Source: Eubacterium sp.
Lineage (GTDB): Bacteria > Bacillota > Clostridia > Lachnospirales > Lachnospiraceae
Direction: 5' to 3'
Length of the DNA stretch: 13,768 nt
Assembly (NCBI GenBank): GCA_020844525.1
Contig: JAJGAH010000011.1
Location: 1 to 13,768 of the forward strand
This document shows, one piece after another, positions 3,820 through 13,749 of the stretch. The notes under the pieces were generated by a model. That model was given only the letters and a program-made list of their open reading frames with translations. It had not been told where the DNA came from and did not search any database. A program made the position numbers and the translations under genes. The stretch's first letter is position 1. Every line of letters begins with the position of its first letter.

Positions 3820-3885
3820 CTGAAATGTAACGTATAATCAAAACCCTGTGAAGGGCGGATTACATAACATAAGAATAGATATAAA

Positions 3886-3960
3886 GTAAAAACCTGTAGT
3901 ATAAAAAACTGTAGTATAAAAACCTTTTGTATAAAAAAATATAGTATAAAAACCCTGTAG
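3886..3960. repeat. Degenerate 15-bp tandem repeat (TATAAAAACCTGTAG-like), about five copies
   Basis: Units of 15-16 bases follow one another: 3886-3899 (partial), 3900-3914, 3915-3929, 3930-3944 and 3945-3960. Each starts with TATAAAAA (the first is degenerate) and most end in TGTAG or a variant. The array sits in the carB-uppP gap, 75 to 149 bases before the uppP start. TATAAA resembles a -10 element, so the array could carry several weak promoters or bind a protein, but no well-spaced -35 was found. It may equally be a neutral slippage product. Confidence 0.75.
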
Positions 3961-4034
3961 AATAGAAATCGGATTCCAAGATCTGAAAACAGAAAAAAGT
4001 ATCACACCGGCTAAACCGGAAAGAGGAAAATGAT

Positions 4035-4934
4035 ATGATCATCACAATAATAAAAACAATCCTGCTTGGTATTGTGGAAGGCATAACGGAGTGGCTGCCC
4101 ATCAGCAGTACCGGACATCTGATCCTGTTCCAGCATATTCTGAATCTGGGAATGAGCAAAGCCTTTGTCTCAATGTTTGACGTCGTGATTCAGTTTGGTG
4201 CGATTATGGCGGTAGTTGTCATTTACTTCAAGAGGCTGTGGCCGTTTCATACCAGGAAGCATGAGCCTGCCAAAACGCAGTTTTCGAACCCGAAAACCGA
4301 AGGAGCAGCAGGCAGATTTCAGAGGTTTGCTGACCGCTATCTGTATATGGACAAAATTGTGCTGTGGCTGAAGATCTGTGTATCTGTCATTCCTGCCATA
4401 CTGATTGGATTTCCGCTGAATGACTGGATGGATGCGCACCTGTACAATCCCACTGTTGTATCTATAATGCTGATTCTCTATGGTATCCTTTTTATTGTGA
4501 TTGAGAATTGGAATAAAACCAGAGAACCACGGGTTTCCAAGGTCAGCCGGATTACCTGGAAGGATGCACTGTTAATTGGAATTTTTCAGTGCCTTGCAAT
4601 GATTCCTGGCACCTCTCGTTCCGGTGCTACAATTATCGGAGGAATTCTGATCGGTCTTTCCAGGACAACTGCGGCAGAATATACATTTTTCCTGGCGATA
4701 CCGACGATGCTGGGCGCCTCCGTGCTGAAGCTGGCCAAATTTGGTCTTGGATTTACGTCAATCGAAGCAGCTGTTCTTCTGCTGGGCTGTGTTGTTTCCT
4801 TTGTCGTATCTATTTTTGTCATCAAGTTCCTGATGAATTATATCCGCCAGCATGACTTCAAGGTGTTCGGATGGTACAGGATTGTTCTTGGTGCGCTGGT
4901 GCTGATTCTTGGAATTGCCGGTGTGCTGAGCTGA
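4035..4934 (+). CDS. uppP: Undecaprenyl-diphosphatase (UppP/BacA)
   Basis: Integral membrane phosphatase that converts undecaprenyl diphosphate to the monophosphate. It recycles the lipid carrier for peptidoglycan and teichoic acid synthesis and gives some bacitracin tolerance. Both family signatures are present: EGITEWLPISSTGHL near residues 15-29 and PGTSRSGATI with Arg195, followed by a Gly-rich membrane segment. Hydrophobic stretches throughout fit the polytopic fold. At 299 residues it is somewhat longer than most members; the extra length appears to be a charged loop of about 45 residues (roughly 65-110) after the second membrane segment. The start at 4035 has an AAGAGGA site (4021-4027) at good spacing. 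A GTATAC-containing direct repeat follows the stop. It may be cotranscribed with the next membrane gene, as no terminator lies between them. Confidence 0.96.
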   Translation: MIITIIKTILLGIVEGITEWLPISSTGHLILFQHILNLGMSKAFVSMFDVVIQFGAIMAVVVIYFKRLWPFHTRKHEPAKTQFSNPKTEGAAGRFQRFADRYLYMDKIVLWLKICVSVIPAILIGFPLNDWMDAHLYNPTVVSIMLILYGILFIVIENWNKTREPRVSKVSRITWKDALLIGIFQCLAMIPGTSRSGATIIGGILIGLSRTTAAEYTFFLAIPTMLGASVLKLAKFGLGFTSIEAAVLLLGCVVSFVVSIFVIKFLMNYIRQHDFKVFGWYRIVLGALVLILGIAGVLS

Positions 4935-8033: not shown

Positions 8034-8531
8034 ATGGCATTTGTAGAAAACACATATCAGCAGCTGTCGCTGGTGGATTCCATGAACCGGCTCAGCGAAA
8101 GAGAACGAAAATTACTGGAACGTTCCTGGGCAAAGCCCTTTGGAGATCAGATTTTTCCCAGAATCGATGAAAAAAGATTTGCCGATTTTTATAGTACGAA
8201 AAGTCCGAGACCCAATACACCTGTCAATATTGTTCTTGGGGGCATGCTTCTGGAGGAGCTTCTGGACCTGACGGACGAGGAGATCATAGAGACACTGAAC
8301 TTTGATGTGCGTTTTCAGTACGCCCTGCATACAACTGCTTATGATATCCAGCCTTTCAGCACCAATACGTTTCGCCGTTTCCGGATCAGAAACGATGCAA
8401 ATACCAGGAAAACCGGAACAGACATACTGGGTGAATATATGCAGGAGATGATCAGAATGGTAGAGGATTGTGGTGACCCCAGGCTGAATCCCCTGCTCCG
8501 GCGCAAACGTGAGAAGGCAAAACAGATATAA
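8034..8531 (+). pseudogene. N-terminal fragment of an IS1182-type (DUF772) transposase, open frame
   Basis: A 165-codon frame whose first 140 or so residues look like the N-terminal DUF772 region of transposases that are common in Lachnospiraceae: MAFVENTYQQ at the start, then SRPNTPVN-type and DVRFQYALHTT motifs, then FSTNTFRRFR. Full-length members run to roughly 450-550 residues and carry a DDE catalytic domain, which is entirely missing here. The frame ends in a Lys/Arg-rich tail (LLRRKREKAKQI) unlike the family. No terminal inverted repeats or other transposase part are visible in the flanks, so this is probably a relic. The frame has no internal stops and a modest ribosome site (AGG at 8022-8024), so a short, possibly expressed protein cannot be excluded. 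Family assignment is from recalled motifs, without a database search. Confidence 0.7.
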
Positions 8532-12002: not shown

Positions 12003-12566
12003 ATGGCAGATGTAGCAGCTGGTGAGTTTAGAAATGGTATGACACTTGAGATCGAGGGCAAGGTATGTCAGGTAATTGAGTTTCAGCATGTAAAACCTGG
12101 CAAAGGCGCTGCTTTCGTAAGAACAAAACTGAAGGACGTCATCAATGGCGGTGTTGTTGAGAAGACATTCCGTCCTACCGAGAAGTTCCCGGCAGCAAGA
12201 ATTGACCGTCATGATATGCAGTATCTGTACAATGATGGAGATCTGTACTACTTCATGGATCCGGAGACCTTTGATCAGGTAGCTGTCAACAGCGATACTG
12301 TTGGGGATTCCCTGAAGTTTGTCAAAGAGAATGAGGTTGTTAAGCTGAATTCCTATAATGGCAGTGTATTTGCAGTTGAGGCTCCCCTCTTTGTAGAGCT
12401 CGAGATTACAGAGACAGAGCCAGGCTTTGCCGGCAATACTGCACAGGGCGCAACGAAGCCTGCTACTGTAGAGACTGGTGCACAGATCAATGTACCGCTT
12501 TTTGTAAACCAGGGCGACAAAGTCCAGATTGATACCAGAACCGGTGAGTACCTCAAGCGTGTCTAA
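12003..12566 (+). CDS. efp: Elongation factor P
   Basis: A 187-residue EF-P of normal length, with three beta-barrel domains. It binds ribosomes stalled at polyproline and stimulates peptide bond formation. The N-terminal KOW-like domain carries the loop [12 protein letters not shown], where Lys34 is the position that is modified in many bacteria. The middle OB domain includes the [15 protein letters not shown] stretch, and the C-terminal domain includes [17 protein letters not shown], the family's typical end. Expression is supported by a TTGAAA/TATAAT promoter and a near-perfect AAGGAGGT (11987-11994) 8 bases before the ATG. No EF-P-modifying enzyme gene is nearby, so the modification type cannot be told. 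Two hairpins follow the stop. Confidence 0.98.
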
Positions 12567-12577
12567 TCAGATATAAA

Positions 12578-12642
12578 GATCACGGAGCCGTGTTCGGGTT
12601 CTGTGATCATTGCCATGCTGGCAGTTTTCTGCCTGCATGGCA
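12578..12642 (+). terminator. Twin hairpins after efp, lacking T-tracts
   Basis: Hairpin 1: GATCACGGAGCC (12578-12589) pairs with GGTTCTGTGATC (12597-12608) across 12 positions with two G-T wobbles and a 7-base loop. Hairpin 2: arms 12611-12624 and 12629-12642 (TGCCATGC and GCATGGCA outside, GGCAG and CTGCC inside, one T-T mismatch) close a TTTT loop. They are 2 bases apart. Neither is followed by a run of T, so they may act as a 3' mRNA end-protecting structure or as atypical termination. Confidence 0.55.
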
Positions 12643-12784
12643 GTCCTGTCCAGATTGAAGCAAATTTATCTGCTTTGTCTCTTATTTCTTCACAGTATTT
12701 TCTGATTTTTATTTCTCAATTATTATTTCTCATACATATCTGAATTATTTATCCGCACTTCATTTTTATATGCATCCGCAGTTT
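12643..12784. other. Gene-free T/C-rich stretch after efp
   Basis: There is no reading frame of note on either strand. The + strand is strongly T-rich, with TTATTTCT at 12682-12689, 12709-12716 and 12723-12730. I see no terminator, promoter or RNA gene in it. Together with the flanking hairpins and palindrome it forms a 520-base region between efp and the next gene. Confidence 0.6.
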
Positions 12785-13018
12785 CAAAAGATAAGCGCTT
12801 TTTTGAAATTGTCTTAAAATTCGAACATTTGCAGACATGCTAGAAGTACTTGGTGATGAGATTTTGCGTTGTTCAGAAAAAGTCAACTGTCTGAGCTGCA
12901 GAATGCAGCGAGTTTTGACTTTTTCTGAACGTCTTTAGCAAAATTGAAGAACCGTAGTACTTCTTGCTTGTCGAAACCGTGAGAATTTCAAGACAATTTC
13001 GCAATCATCAATCTTTTG
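12785..13018. repeat. Long imperfect inverted repeat, MITE-like or structured RNA
   Basis: Blocks pair in nested order. CAAAAGAT at 12785-12792 pairs with 13011-13018. GAAATTGTCTTAAAATTC at 12805-12822 pairs with 12983-13000 (17 of 18). GACATGCTAGAAGTACT at 12834-12850 pairs with 12956-12972 (15 of 17). ATTTTGC at 12861-12867 pairs with 12938-12944. GTTCAGAAAAAGTCAA at 12871-12886 pairs perfectly with 12915-12930. GCTGCA at 12895-12900 pairs with 12904-12909 around a 3-base loop. This is far more pairing than chance would give over a 234-base span. No protein is encoded in either arm, and no clear target-site duplication flanks it. Confidence 0.85.
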
Positions 13019-13086
13019 GTCCCAATATTATAGATATTTATAAAAAACAAAAAGTGAATAAATATATATAAGAGAGGAGAAACATT

Positions 13087-13749
13087 ATGAACTATTACAG
13101 ATGTATTTCTATCAGCAGCAGACTTCCGGAGGATTTTTTCAAAAATTATGAGGATGTCAGAAACAACCTGCGATGCCGGCTGATTCATGCAGAGAGAAAT
13201 CAGAGATTTCTCATTGATGTGCCGCATCGGAAATGGATGGATCTCGCCATTACGTGCGTATATGAAATTCATGAGAAAGACAAGCCGGACTGCGCAATAC
13301 AAATCCAGAATGCTCATCTCAGGCCCTGGGGTATTGAACCAGAACAGCTGATTCGTGATGCTCTGCAAAACTCATTGAAAACCAAAGATATTCTGTTCCA
13401 GCCGCTTGCCAGCTTTCTGGAAAGCGAGCTTGACGCAGATAGCGGAGAGCTTCCGGATTCCCCTCTTTATCTGCTTTCAAACCAGAGCAGACCATATGGG
13501 GCTGCCGTGATCGCCCTGCCTGGAATGACAGAGCGGATTGCAGAAAAGCTGGAATGTGATTATTTTATTATTCCAAGCAGTGTGCATGAATGCCTGATTC
13601 TTCCGGATGACGGCAATTATTCCGTATCAGAACTCAATGAGATGGTCAGAAGCATTAATCAGACAAATGTTGAGGAACAGGATGTATTATCCGACCATGT
13701 CTATATCTATAAAAGGCCGGAGACGGGGAGCTTTCATCCCAATAAGTAA
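13087..13749 (+). CDS. DUF5688-family protein, N-terminally short form
   Basis: A 220-residue protein of unknown function. Its body matches what I recall of DUF5688 proteins, which are common in Lachnospiraceae. The DFFKNYEDVRNNL start resembles their middle section, and then come DVPHRKWMDLAI, IQNAHLRPWGI and the C-terminal YLLSNQSRPYGAAVIALPG, FIIPSSVHECLILP and DVLSDHVYIYKR motifs. Many family members carry about 80-100 further residues in front, so this looks like a short or truncated form. It starts at an ATG with AGAGGAGA (13073-13080) 6 bases upstream, so the short form is plausibly real. No signal peptide or membrane segment is seen. It lies directly after the long inverted repeat. 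A clear promoter was not identified in the AT-rich 13020-13070 stretch. Confidence 0.75.
   Translation: MNYYRCISISSRLPEDFFKNYEDVRNNLRCRLIHAERNQRFLIDVPHRKWMDLAITCVYEIHEKDKPDCAIQIQNAHLRPWGIEPEQLIRDALQNSLKTKDILFQPLASFLESELDADSGELPDSPLYLLSNQSRPYGAAVIALPGMTERIAEKLECDYFIIPSSVHECLILPDDGNYSVSELNEMVRSINQTNVEEQDVLSDHVYIYKRPETGSFHPNK

Follow-up and report, generated by a model that had tools for sequence, protein, structure and literature searches.

What is the long inverted repeat that lies near the end of the window, the 13,768-nt stretch of Eubacterium sp. DNA analyzed here? A nested inverted repeat had been described at positions 12785 to 13018, and it was found at that place, between the elongation factor P gene efp (12003-12566) and a gene encoding a DUF5688 protein (13087-13749). 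RNA folding of 12780-13023 gave -92.1 kcal/mol, compared to -54.3 kcal/mol (standard deviation of 4.3) for 200 shuffled sequences, none of which folded as well (z score of -8.8), and DNA folding of 12775-13028 gave a z score of -7.3; the fold is far beyond chance. Both the exact 16-bp inner arm (12871-12886/12915-12930) and the outer block with 17 of 18 matches (12805-12822/12983-13000) were confirmed. Alignment of copies defined a conserved core of 196 bp and weaker outer arms that extend to approximately 12776 and approximately 13029, for a total length of about 254 bp (Table 1). The alignments indicate that the unpaired interruptions of the stem are not random decay, because motifs conserved in other genera sit there. 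An open reading frame of 33 amino acids could be read within the hairpin (12837-12938), and a small protein was rejected as the role of the hairpin since the frame was not kept in other genera, as judged by eye rather than by a formal test.

Table 1. Parts of the element and the evidence for each (positions in the window)
Feature	Position	Strand	Evidence
Hairpin core	12805..13000	+	22 own-genome copies (17 complete, 5 truncated at contig ends); identity to the window of 92 to 99% across the matching segment
Left outer arm of 29 nt; its terminal repeat is degenerate (family form ATGTCAGGGTCAAAAG)	12776..12804	+	Copy alignment; median pairwise identity 0.65
Right outer arm of 29 nt; its terminal repeat is degenerate (family form CTTTTGACCCTGACAT)	13001..13029	+	Copy alignment; median pairwise identity 0.67
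Loop 1, 5′ side, ATTTGCAG	12827..12834	+	Columns mostly invariant in alignments A1 and A2
Loop 1, 3′ side, CGAAACC	12972..12978	+	52 of 88 elements from genomes outside model building have the motif somewhere in the core, with at most 1 mismatch
CTTAG-type mismatch, 5′ side (CTTGG here; partner CGTAG at 12953-12957)	12849..12853	+	CTTAG recurs on both strands in other genera
Loop 2, 5′ side, GTT	12868..12870	+	Distance between GCGTT (or GTGTT) and the tip motif
Loop 2, 3′ side, GTCTTTA (family form nnnnTTA before GC)	12931..12937	+	TTAGC invariant in 8 rows of A2
Inner stem and tip	12871..12930	+	16-bp stem 12871-12886/12915-12930 around CTGTCTGAG (12887-12895) and CGAGTT (12909-12914)

BLAST was used to look for further copies in the own genome (G000; 2.53 Mb in 384 contigs, 69% complete). 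The search returned 96 rows, which resolved into 22 full-core copies, the window's included, and 14 short forms, plus older fragments. Median pairwise identity of the core was 0.96 among the 17 complete copies. The 14 short copies carried internal deletions that removed loop 2 and the tip, and one deletion junction was common to 9 of the 14. As these tipless copies with one junction lie at different places, spread in this genome may be possible without the tip. BLAST of 15 congeners found nothing except one weak match of 27 bases, and a covariance model detected divergent relatives in two of the 15, G015 and G008. The gap behind efp could be read in 13 congeners, 12 of which had no match to the hairpin model there. 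A different family member (L259) occupied the same gap in G015 in the opposite orientation, which could reflect either a hot spot or chance. The protein encoded next to the window's hairpin matched only positions 84 to 290 of the 290-position DUF5688 profile, and two congeners (L250 and L256) encoded a full-length-looking relative of 294 and 285 amino acids, respectively, directly behind efp. The 5′ end of the window's DUF5688 gene seems to have been lost beside the hairpin.

The ends of the copies suggested mobility. Copies in G000 and in G413, a genome of another genus, had the same 16-bp terminal repeat, ATGTCARGGTCAAAAG, which was degenerate in G000, while their stems were unrelated. Allowing up to two mismatches, the repeat occurred at 26 places in G000 and 67 places in G413, compared to 6 and 6 for the reversed pattern. 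When 38 copies from the two genomes were tested for target duplication, 18 had recognizable ends, and identity of their 9-bp flanks was 0.50 compared to 0.365 in 2,000 permutations, none of which was as high. Ten duplication lengths were tried; apart from 9 bp, there was a weak excess at 8 and 10 bp (P = 0.049 and 0.02, respectively) and none at the others. The clearest 9-bp duplications flanked L002 (9 of 9 positions) and L011 and L232 (8 of 9 each), and the window's own copy had no visible duplication (1 of 9). We conclude that the proposal of a MITE-like element is supported for G000, given the many copies, the shared terminal repeat, the flank matches that were clearest at 9 bp, and the congener efp gaps that lack the hairpin. 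By its ends and target duplication, the element is MITE-like in G000, but its interior, conserved and with its structure kept across many genera, is unlike that of a plain MITE.

In other genera, the stem was preceded by CA and followed by GT in 17 of 80 elements from 10 genomes, against a background of 0.3%. These signature ends were located 28 to 30, 40 to 50, or 92 nt from loop 1, and the arms reach up to approximately 90 bases beyond loop 1. A regular series of arm lengths, perhaps in steps of two helical turns, is not claimed, as the independent lineages were too few. Because several other genera bear this different mark at the stem ends, lineages have probably swapped outer ends and retained the hairpin.

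A partner transposase bearing the terminal repeat was sought in one family, PF01609, which had four matches in G000, none of them flanked by the repeat, and no match in G413. PF01609 transposases were rejected as the source because none bear the ends of the element. The window itself contains a lone N-terminal piece (165 amino acids) of a DUF772 transposase at 8034-8531, presumably of the IS1182 type, with the rest of the gene absent; it was likewise rejected as the source, as there were no matching ends within the window. Carriage by phage was also discarded, since three hairpin patterns matched nothing in viral contigs. The terminal-repeat pattern was found in seven viral stretches, none of which matched the hairpin model. 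Two of these stretches (L225 and L228) had a single terminal-repeat end ahead of a gene that we take to be lexA.

Replication strand could be scored for 64 of 115 elements in all. A strong bias was found in G061 (12 of 13 elements), for which origin and terminus were placed by a dnaA-like gene and GC skew. The bias ran the opposite way in G375 (4 of 4) and overall was not significant (25 anti and 18 same outside G000). A general replication-strand rule was therefore rejected.

The hairpin proved to belong to a family that extends over many genera. Family-wide BLAST found weak relatives in two further genomes, and the aligned relatives had short motifs in common at unpaired places and stems that were unrelated yet complementary. 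A covariance model built from eight sequences matched at least 39 of 397 sampled Lachnospiraceae genomes and at least 35 of 334 genera (the own genus among them) at an E value of ≤0.01; these counts are lower bounds, as the search scored at most seven candidates per genome. Of the 39 genomes, 36 had a match at 1e-5 or better, and E values reached 7.5e-31 in genomes outside model building. TTTGCAG, with at most one mismatch and anywhere in the core, was present in 60 of 88 elements from genomes outside model building. The spacing between GCGTT (or GTGTT) and the tip motif was exactly 16 in 17 genomes and 15, 17, and 21 in one, two, and one genome, respectively.

Fusicatenibacter saccharivorans and Selenomonas ruminantium were among the named carriers of the hairpin or its tip. 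The tip pattern matched the own genome at 20 places and G133 at 4, and a longer tip pattern was found in 13 stretches of S. ruminantium. The exact tip pattern carrying the stem bases of the own genome had no match in the genome contig collection searched. The Selenomonas tip, with other loops further out, was present in the 13 S. ruminantium stretches and in one Selenomonadales stretch. The model matched all 13 S. ruminantium stretches at E values below 1e-7, with some of these matches confined to the tip. Its match to the Selenomonadales stretch was unconvincing (E value of 0.07). The S. ruminantium hairpins (L068 to L071 and L073 to L081) occur several per genome in some strains.

Compensatory change in the stems was assessed with 77 sequences. 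Because the alignment of these sequences was fitted to the model, the following figures for pairing and covariation are inflated: 92.8% of cells were paired, compared to 60.4% after shuffling, and the covariation score was 0.779, compared to 0.184 ± 0.006 for shuffled sequences and at most 0.132 for slid partners. Two-sided changes, a count raised by the fitting as well, were found in 54 of 59 pairs. All four Watson-Crick types occurred at 31 of 43 well-paired positions, which the fitting could not have produced. Before pairing, end marks, loop motifs, orientation, and strand were counted, 17 of the 104 rows of alignment A4 were removed (15 antisense readings and 2 rows of L136, a repeat of L115 and an antisense reading). 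Alignment A5 omitted 13 of 80 sources (five G000 copies, L084, L086, L088, L104, L131, L132, L136, and L172), and four were added. Across the family, loops and spacings are fixed while stems change freely.

How the arms stay complementary was addressed by counting changes among related copies. Four young copies in G413 had 11 two-sided Watson-Crick events, 7 single events, and 1 two-sided mismatch, with 0.03 double cells expected under independence. Similarly, six copies in G378 had 11 two-sided Watson-Crick events, 12 single events, and 1 two-sided mismatch, with 0.1 double cells expected under independence. With two more distant copies added to those of G413, the counts were 55 two-sided Watson-Crick events, 55 single events, and 18 two-sided mismatches. 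The 17 copies in G000 had 40 single cells and 7 double cells, all 7 of them Watson-Crick; the expected number of doubles was 0.32. Double events are about as frequent as single events among the young copies of G413 and G378, whereas selection on single mutations would be expected to leave far more singles, which suggests that one arm served as the template for the other, through template switching or repair of the hairpin. Selection for pairing, which the original prediction had raised in view of the differences between arms, fits the very strong covariation, but arm-to-arm copying would give the same pattern. Copying of this kind would also pair up the loops, and therefore either selection must act on the loops or the copying must pass over them.

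The element could act as RNA or as DNA. By our own reckoning, and assuming equal base use, G-U pairs equal in value to Watson-Crick pairs would make up a third of cells. Among the 43 pairs in which Watson-Crick cells made up 85% or more, a selection that itself depresses G-U, there were 3,440 Watson-Crick, 62 G-U, 35 A-C, and 106 other cells (62 G-U of 3,643). Without selection, all 59 pairs (4,971 cells) gave 4,380 Watson-Crick, 247 G-U, 63 A-C, and 281 other cells, and 74 of the 247 G-U cells came from one near-constant U-G pair beside loop 2. In helices 1 to 8 without that pair, G-U made up 99 of 3,903 cells (2.5%).

The position of the elements relative to genes was also scored. Among 29 scorable elements of 31 in G000, orientation relative to neighboring genes was (+,+) in 11, (-,-) in 5, (+,-) in 8, and (-,+) in 5; for 42 scorable elements of 80 outside G000, the numbers were 11, 18, 11, and 2, respectively. 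A simple gene caller placed at least half of the element inside an open frame of at least 100 codons for 1 of 31 elements in G000 and 10 of 80 elsewhere; with 11 of 111 elements thus overlapping open frames, "intergenic" is not absolute. The flanking genes at 10 loci were ordinary and mutually unrelated, with 17 of 19 proteins matching Pfam families, and no domain of a transposase, integrase, recombinase, or IS110-type recombinase was found among these 19 proteins. Rfam gave no match at gathering score for the window and none at an E value of ≤1 for 12560-13090, and a known RNA family was rejected. At the window's copy, there was no terminator-like site, and promoter-like sites numbered 1 compared to 1.9 in shuffled sequences, and thus a leader or terminator of the next gene was rejected. 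Because G-U pairs are rare, orientation is mixed, and Rfam has no match, a DNA hairpin fits better than RNA, and the element likely acts as DNA.

Taken with the unrelated neighbors at the 10 loci, these results do not support the earlier suggestion that the hairpin is a large structured RNA or a leader for the gene that follows. A structured RNA, acting in trans or in cis, could nonetheless ride on a mobile repeat, with the internal loops of its transcript binding a protein. Conserved internal loops and strong covariation would be expected of such an RNA. Moreover, G-U exceeded A-C when counted as events (57 compared to 33; P = 0.015), an excess to be read knowing that a covariance model itself favors G-U over A-C, and one-sided C-to-U changes in the tip preserved a U-G pair, as expected of RNA or of a single strand. 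Set against the scarcity of G-U in the stem, the lack of a fixed orientation to neighboring genes, the absence of transcription signals at the window's copy beyond chance level, and the lack of an Rfam match, this explanation is quite improbable. The site may also form a cruciform in DNA, as proposed at the outset. A related alternative is that the hairpin resembles a giant REP or attC site, with a site-specific recombinase or an HUH transposase reading it as folded single-stranded DNA, and that the terminal repeats of G000 are secondary. Conservation of structure with freedom of sequence, the polar CA/GT end mark, and the strand bias in G061 all agree with such reading. It is nevertheless doubtful, as a DDE enzyme is indicated by the 9-bp duplication seen in two genera, the strand bias is not general, and the 19 flanking proteins scanned included no recombinase.

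The remaining alternatives concern how the parts of the element came together. The core had a median pairwise identity of 0.96 in G000, compared to 0.65 to 0.67 for the outer arms (17 of 22 full copies), and the corresponding identities in G413 were 0.96 and 0.81 to 0.83. Divergence of the outer arms is not explained by transposition of the whole unit, and thus the core either was homogenized or entered older palindromes. In the latter case, the core would be a separate element that inserts at the center of preexisting palindromes, among them the TGATGTCA palindromes of G000, where two coreless palindromes with the same ends were found (L233 and L234). We consider core insertion unlikely because the short copies in G413 read as deletion derivatives, the outer arms in G413 track the core more closely than those in G000, and gene conversion between copies would look identical. 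An ordinary MITE moved by a DDE transposase, with a long hairpin that is only the arms of a larger transposon brought together and an interior without a role, would account for the terminal repeat with its 9-bp duplication, for the dispersal of the tipless short forms, and for the many copies that lie mostly between genes. Such a MITE is an improbable full explanation, however, as many genera have the same loops at the same spacing even though their stems are unrelated, and these loops also occur with other outer ends. Loops in a functionless interior would not be expected to persist in this way.

The findings that carry our own explanation are the many copies, the unrelated neighbors where these were scanned, the terminal repeat common to two genera, the 9-bp duplication in part of the copies, the constancy of loops and spacings on stems that vary freely, and the joint change of the arms in young copies. 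We conclude that the hairpin in the window is a copy of a dispersed noncoding palindrome. This palindrome probably spreads as mobile DNA, moved in trans by a putative transposase, and its active form is likely a folded hairpin of DNA and not an RNA. We infer that a DDE-type transposase recognizing ATGTCARGGTCAAAAG would have moved the copies in G000 and G413. Complementarity of the arms would be maintained mainly through copying of one arm from its partner as the strand folds back, while selection would keep the loops unpaired, perhaps for reading by a putative protein. More tentatively, the family may be an undescribed class of chromosomal DNA hairpin of Lachnospiraceae and Selenomonas that is copied while folded, one arm writing the other, with the fixed loops serving as the address of a hairpin-reading enzyme. 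If so, it would be a mobile element inherited as shape and not as sequence.

Comparison with known systems places the family near several classes of repeat. MITEs, such as the Correia or NEMIS elements of Neisseria, are similarly short, noncoding, mostly intergenic, and dispersed, with terminal inverted repeats, and part of the window's subfamily also has the target duplication; the hairpin family differs in its giant-hairpin interior, loops and spacings conserved between genera on unrelated stems, outer ends that vary between genera, and coevolving arms. Integron attC sites keep structure while sequence drifts, the folded strand being what is read, and the hairpin family likewise keeps its structure as its sequence drifts. 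It differs from attC in being far longer, in having other conserved motifs, and in the absence of an integrase among the genes scanned. In bacteria, long perfect palindromes are generally regarded as unstable, and palindromic repeats are usually short or lack a conserved interior. Against this background stands a widespread family, found in about a tenth of the sampled Lachnospiraceae genomes, with long arms, conserved interior loops, and stems that change jointly in both arms. It offers a natural system for following how one arm is copied from the other and for studying both the reader of the loops and the tolerance of these bacteria to long palindromes.

REP elements too are dispersed extragenic palindromes with an unpaired end mark. 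The hairpin family reads 5′ CA-stem-GT(CC) 3′ and in this differs from the CGTC repeats, with their own order of tag and tail. According to one study, GTAG- and CGTC-tagged REP elements measure 20 to 40 bp, a size that excludes the 196-bp core (about 254 bp with arms), and CGTC repeats carry the CGTC tag at one end, have tails fitting CCA, and likewise lack a known transposase; the word "Firmicutes" is absent from its text (Di Nocera 2013, PMC3733652). STAXI motifs are repeated conserved structures for which single-stranded DNA was considered by the authors, described as pseudoknot repeats often near DNA-handling genes (Weinberg 2010, PMC2864571), whereas the window's element is a single hairpin with unrelated neighbors. 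In our literature search, with preprints outside its scope and few subscription papers, no title or abstract was found to describe the hairpin family. PMC8040213 reports 20 palindromic candidates not predicted as terminators, one of which may be the hairpin family.

Some family members and one further locus in the window had additional features. L116 (G267) and L131 (G354) had near-perfect stems that continued approximately 80 bp past the model ends, making them unusually long palindromes for a bacterial chromosome. The tip of L241 (G413) seemed, by eye, to hold an extra inserted hairpin. L186, L190, and L194 (G416) and L212, L214, and L216 (G015) formed a subfamily of approximately 190 to 200 nt with loop-1-like and CTTAG-type motifs and a different inner part. 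Finally, tandem 15-bp units of the TAAAAACCTGTAGTA type were found in the window at 3872-3961, ahead of the gene at 4035-4934.
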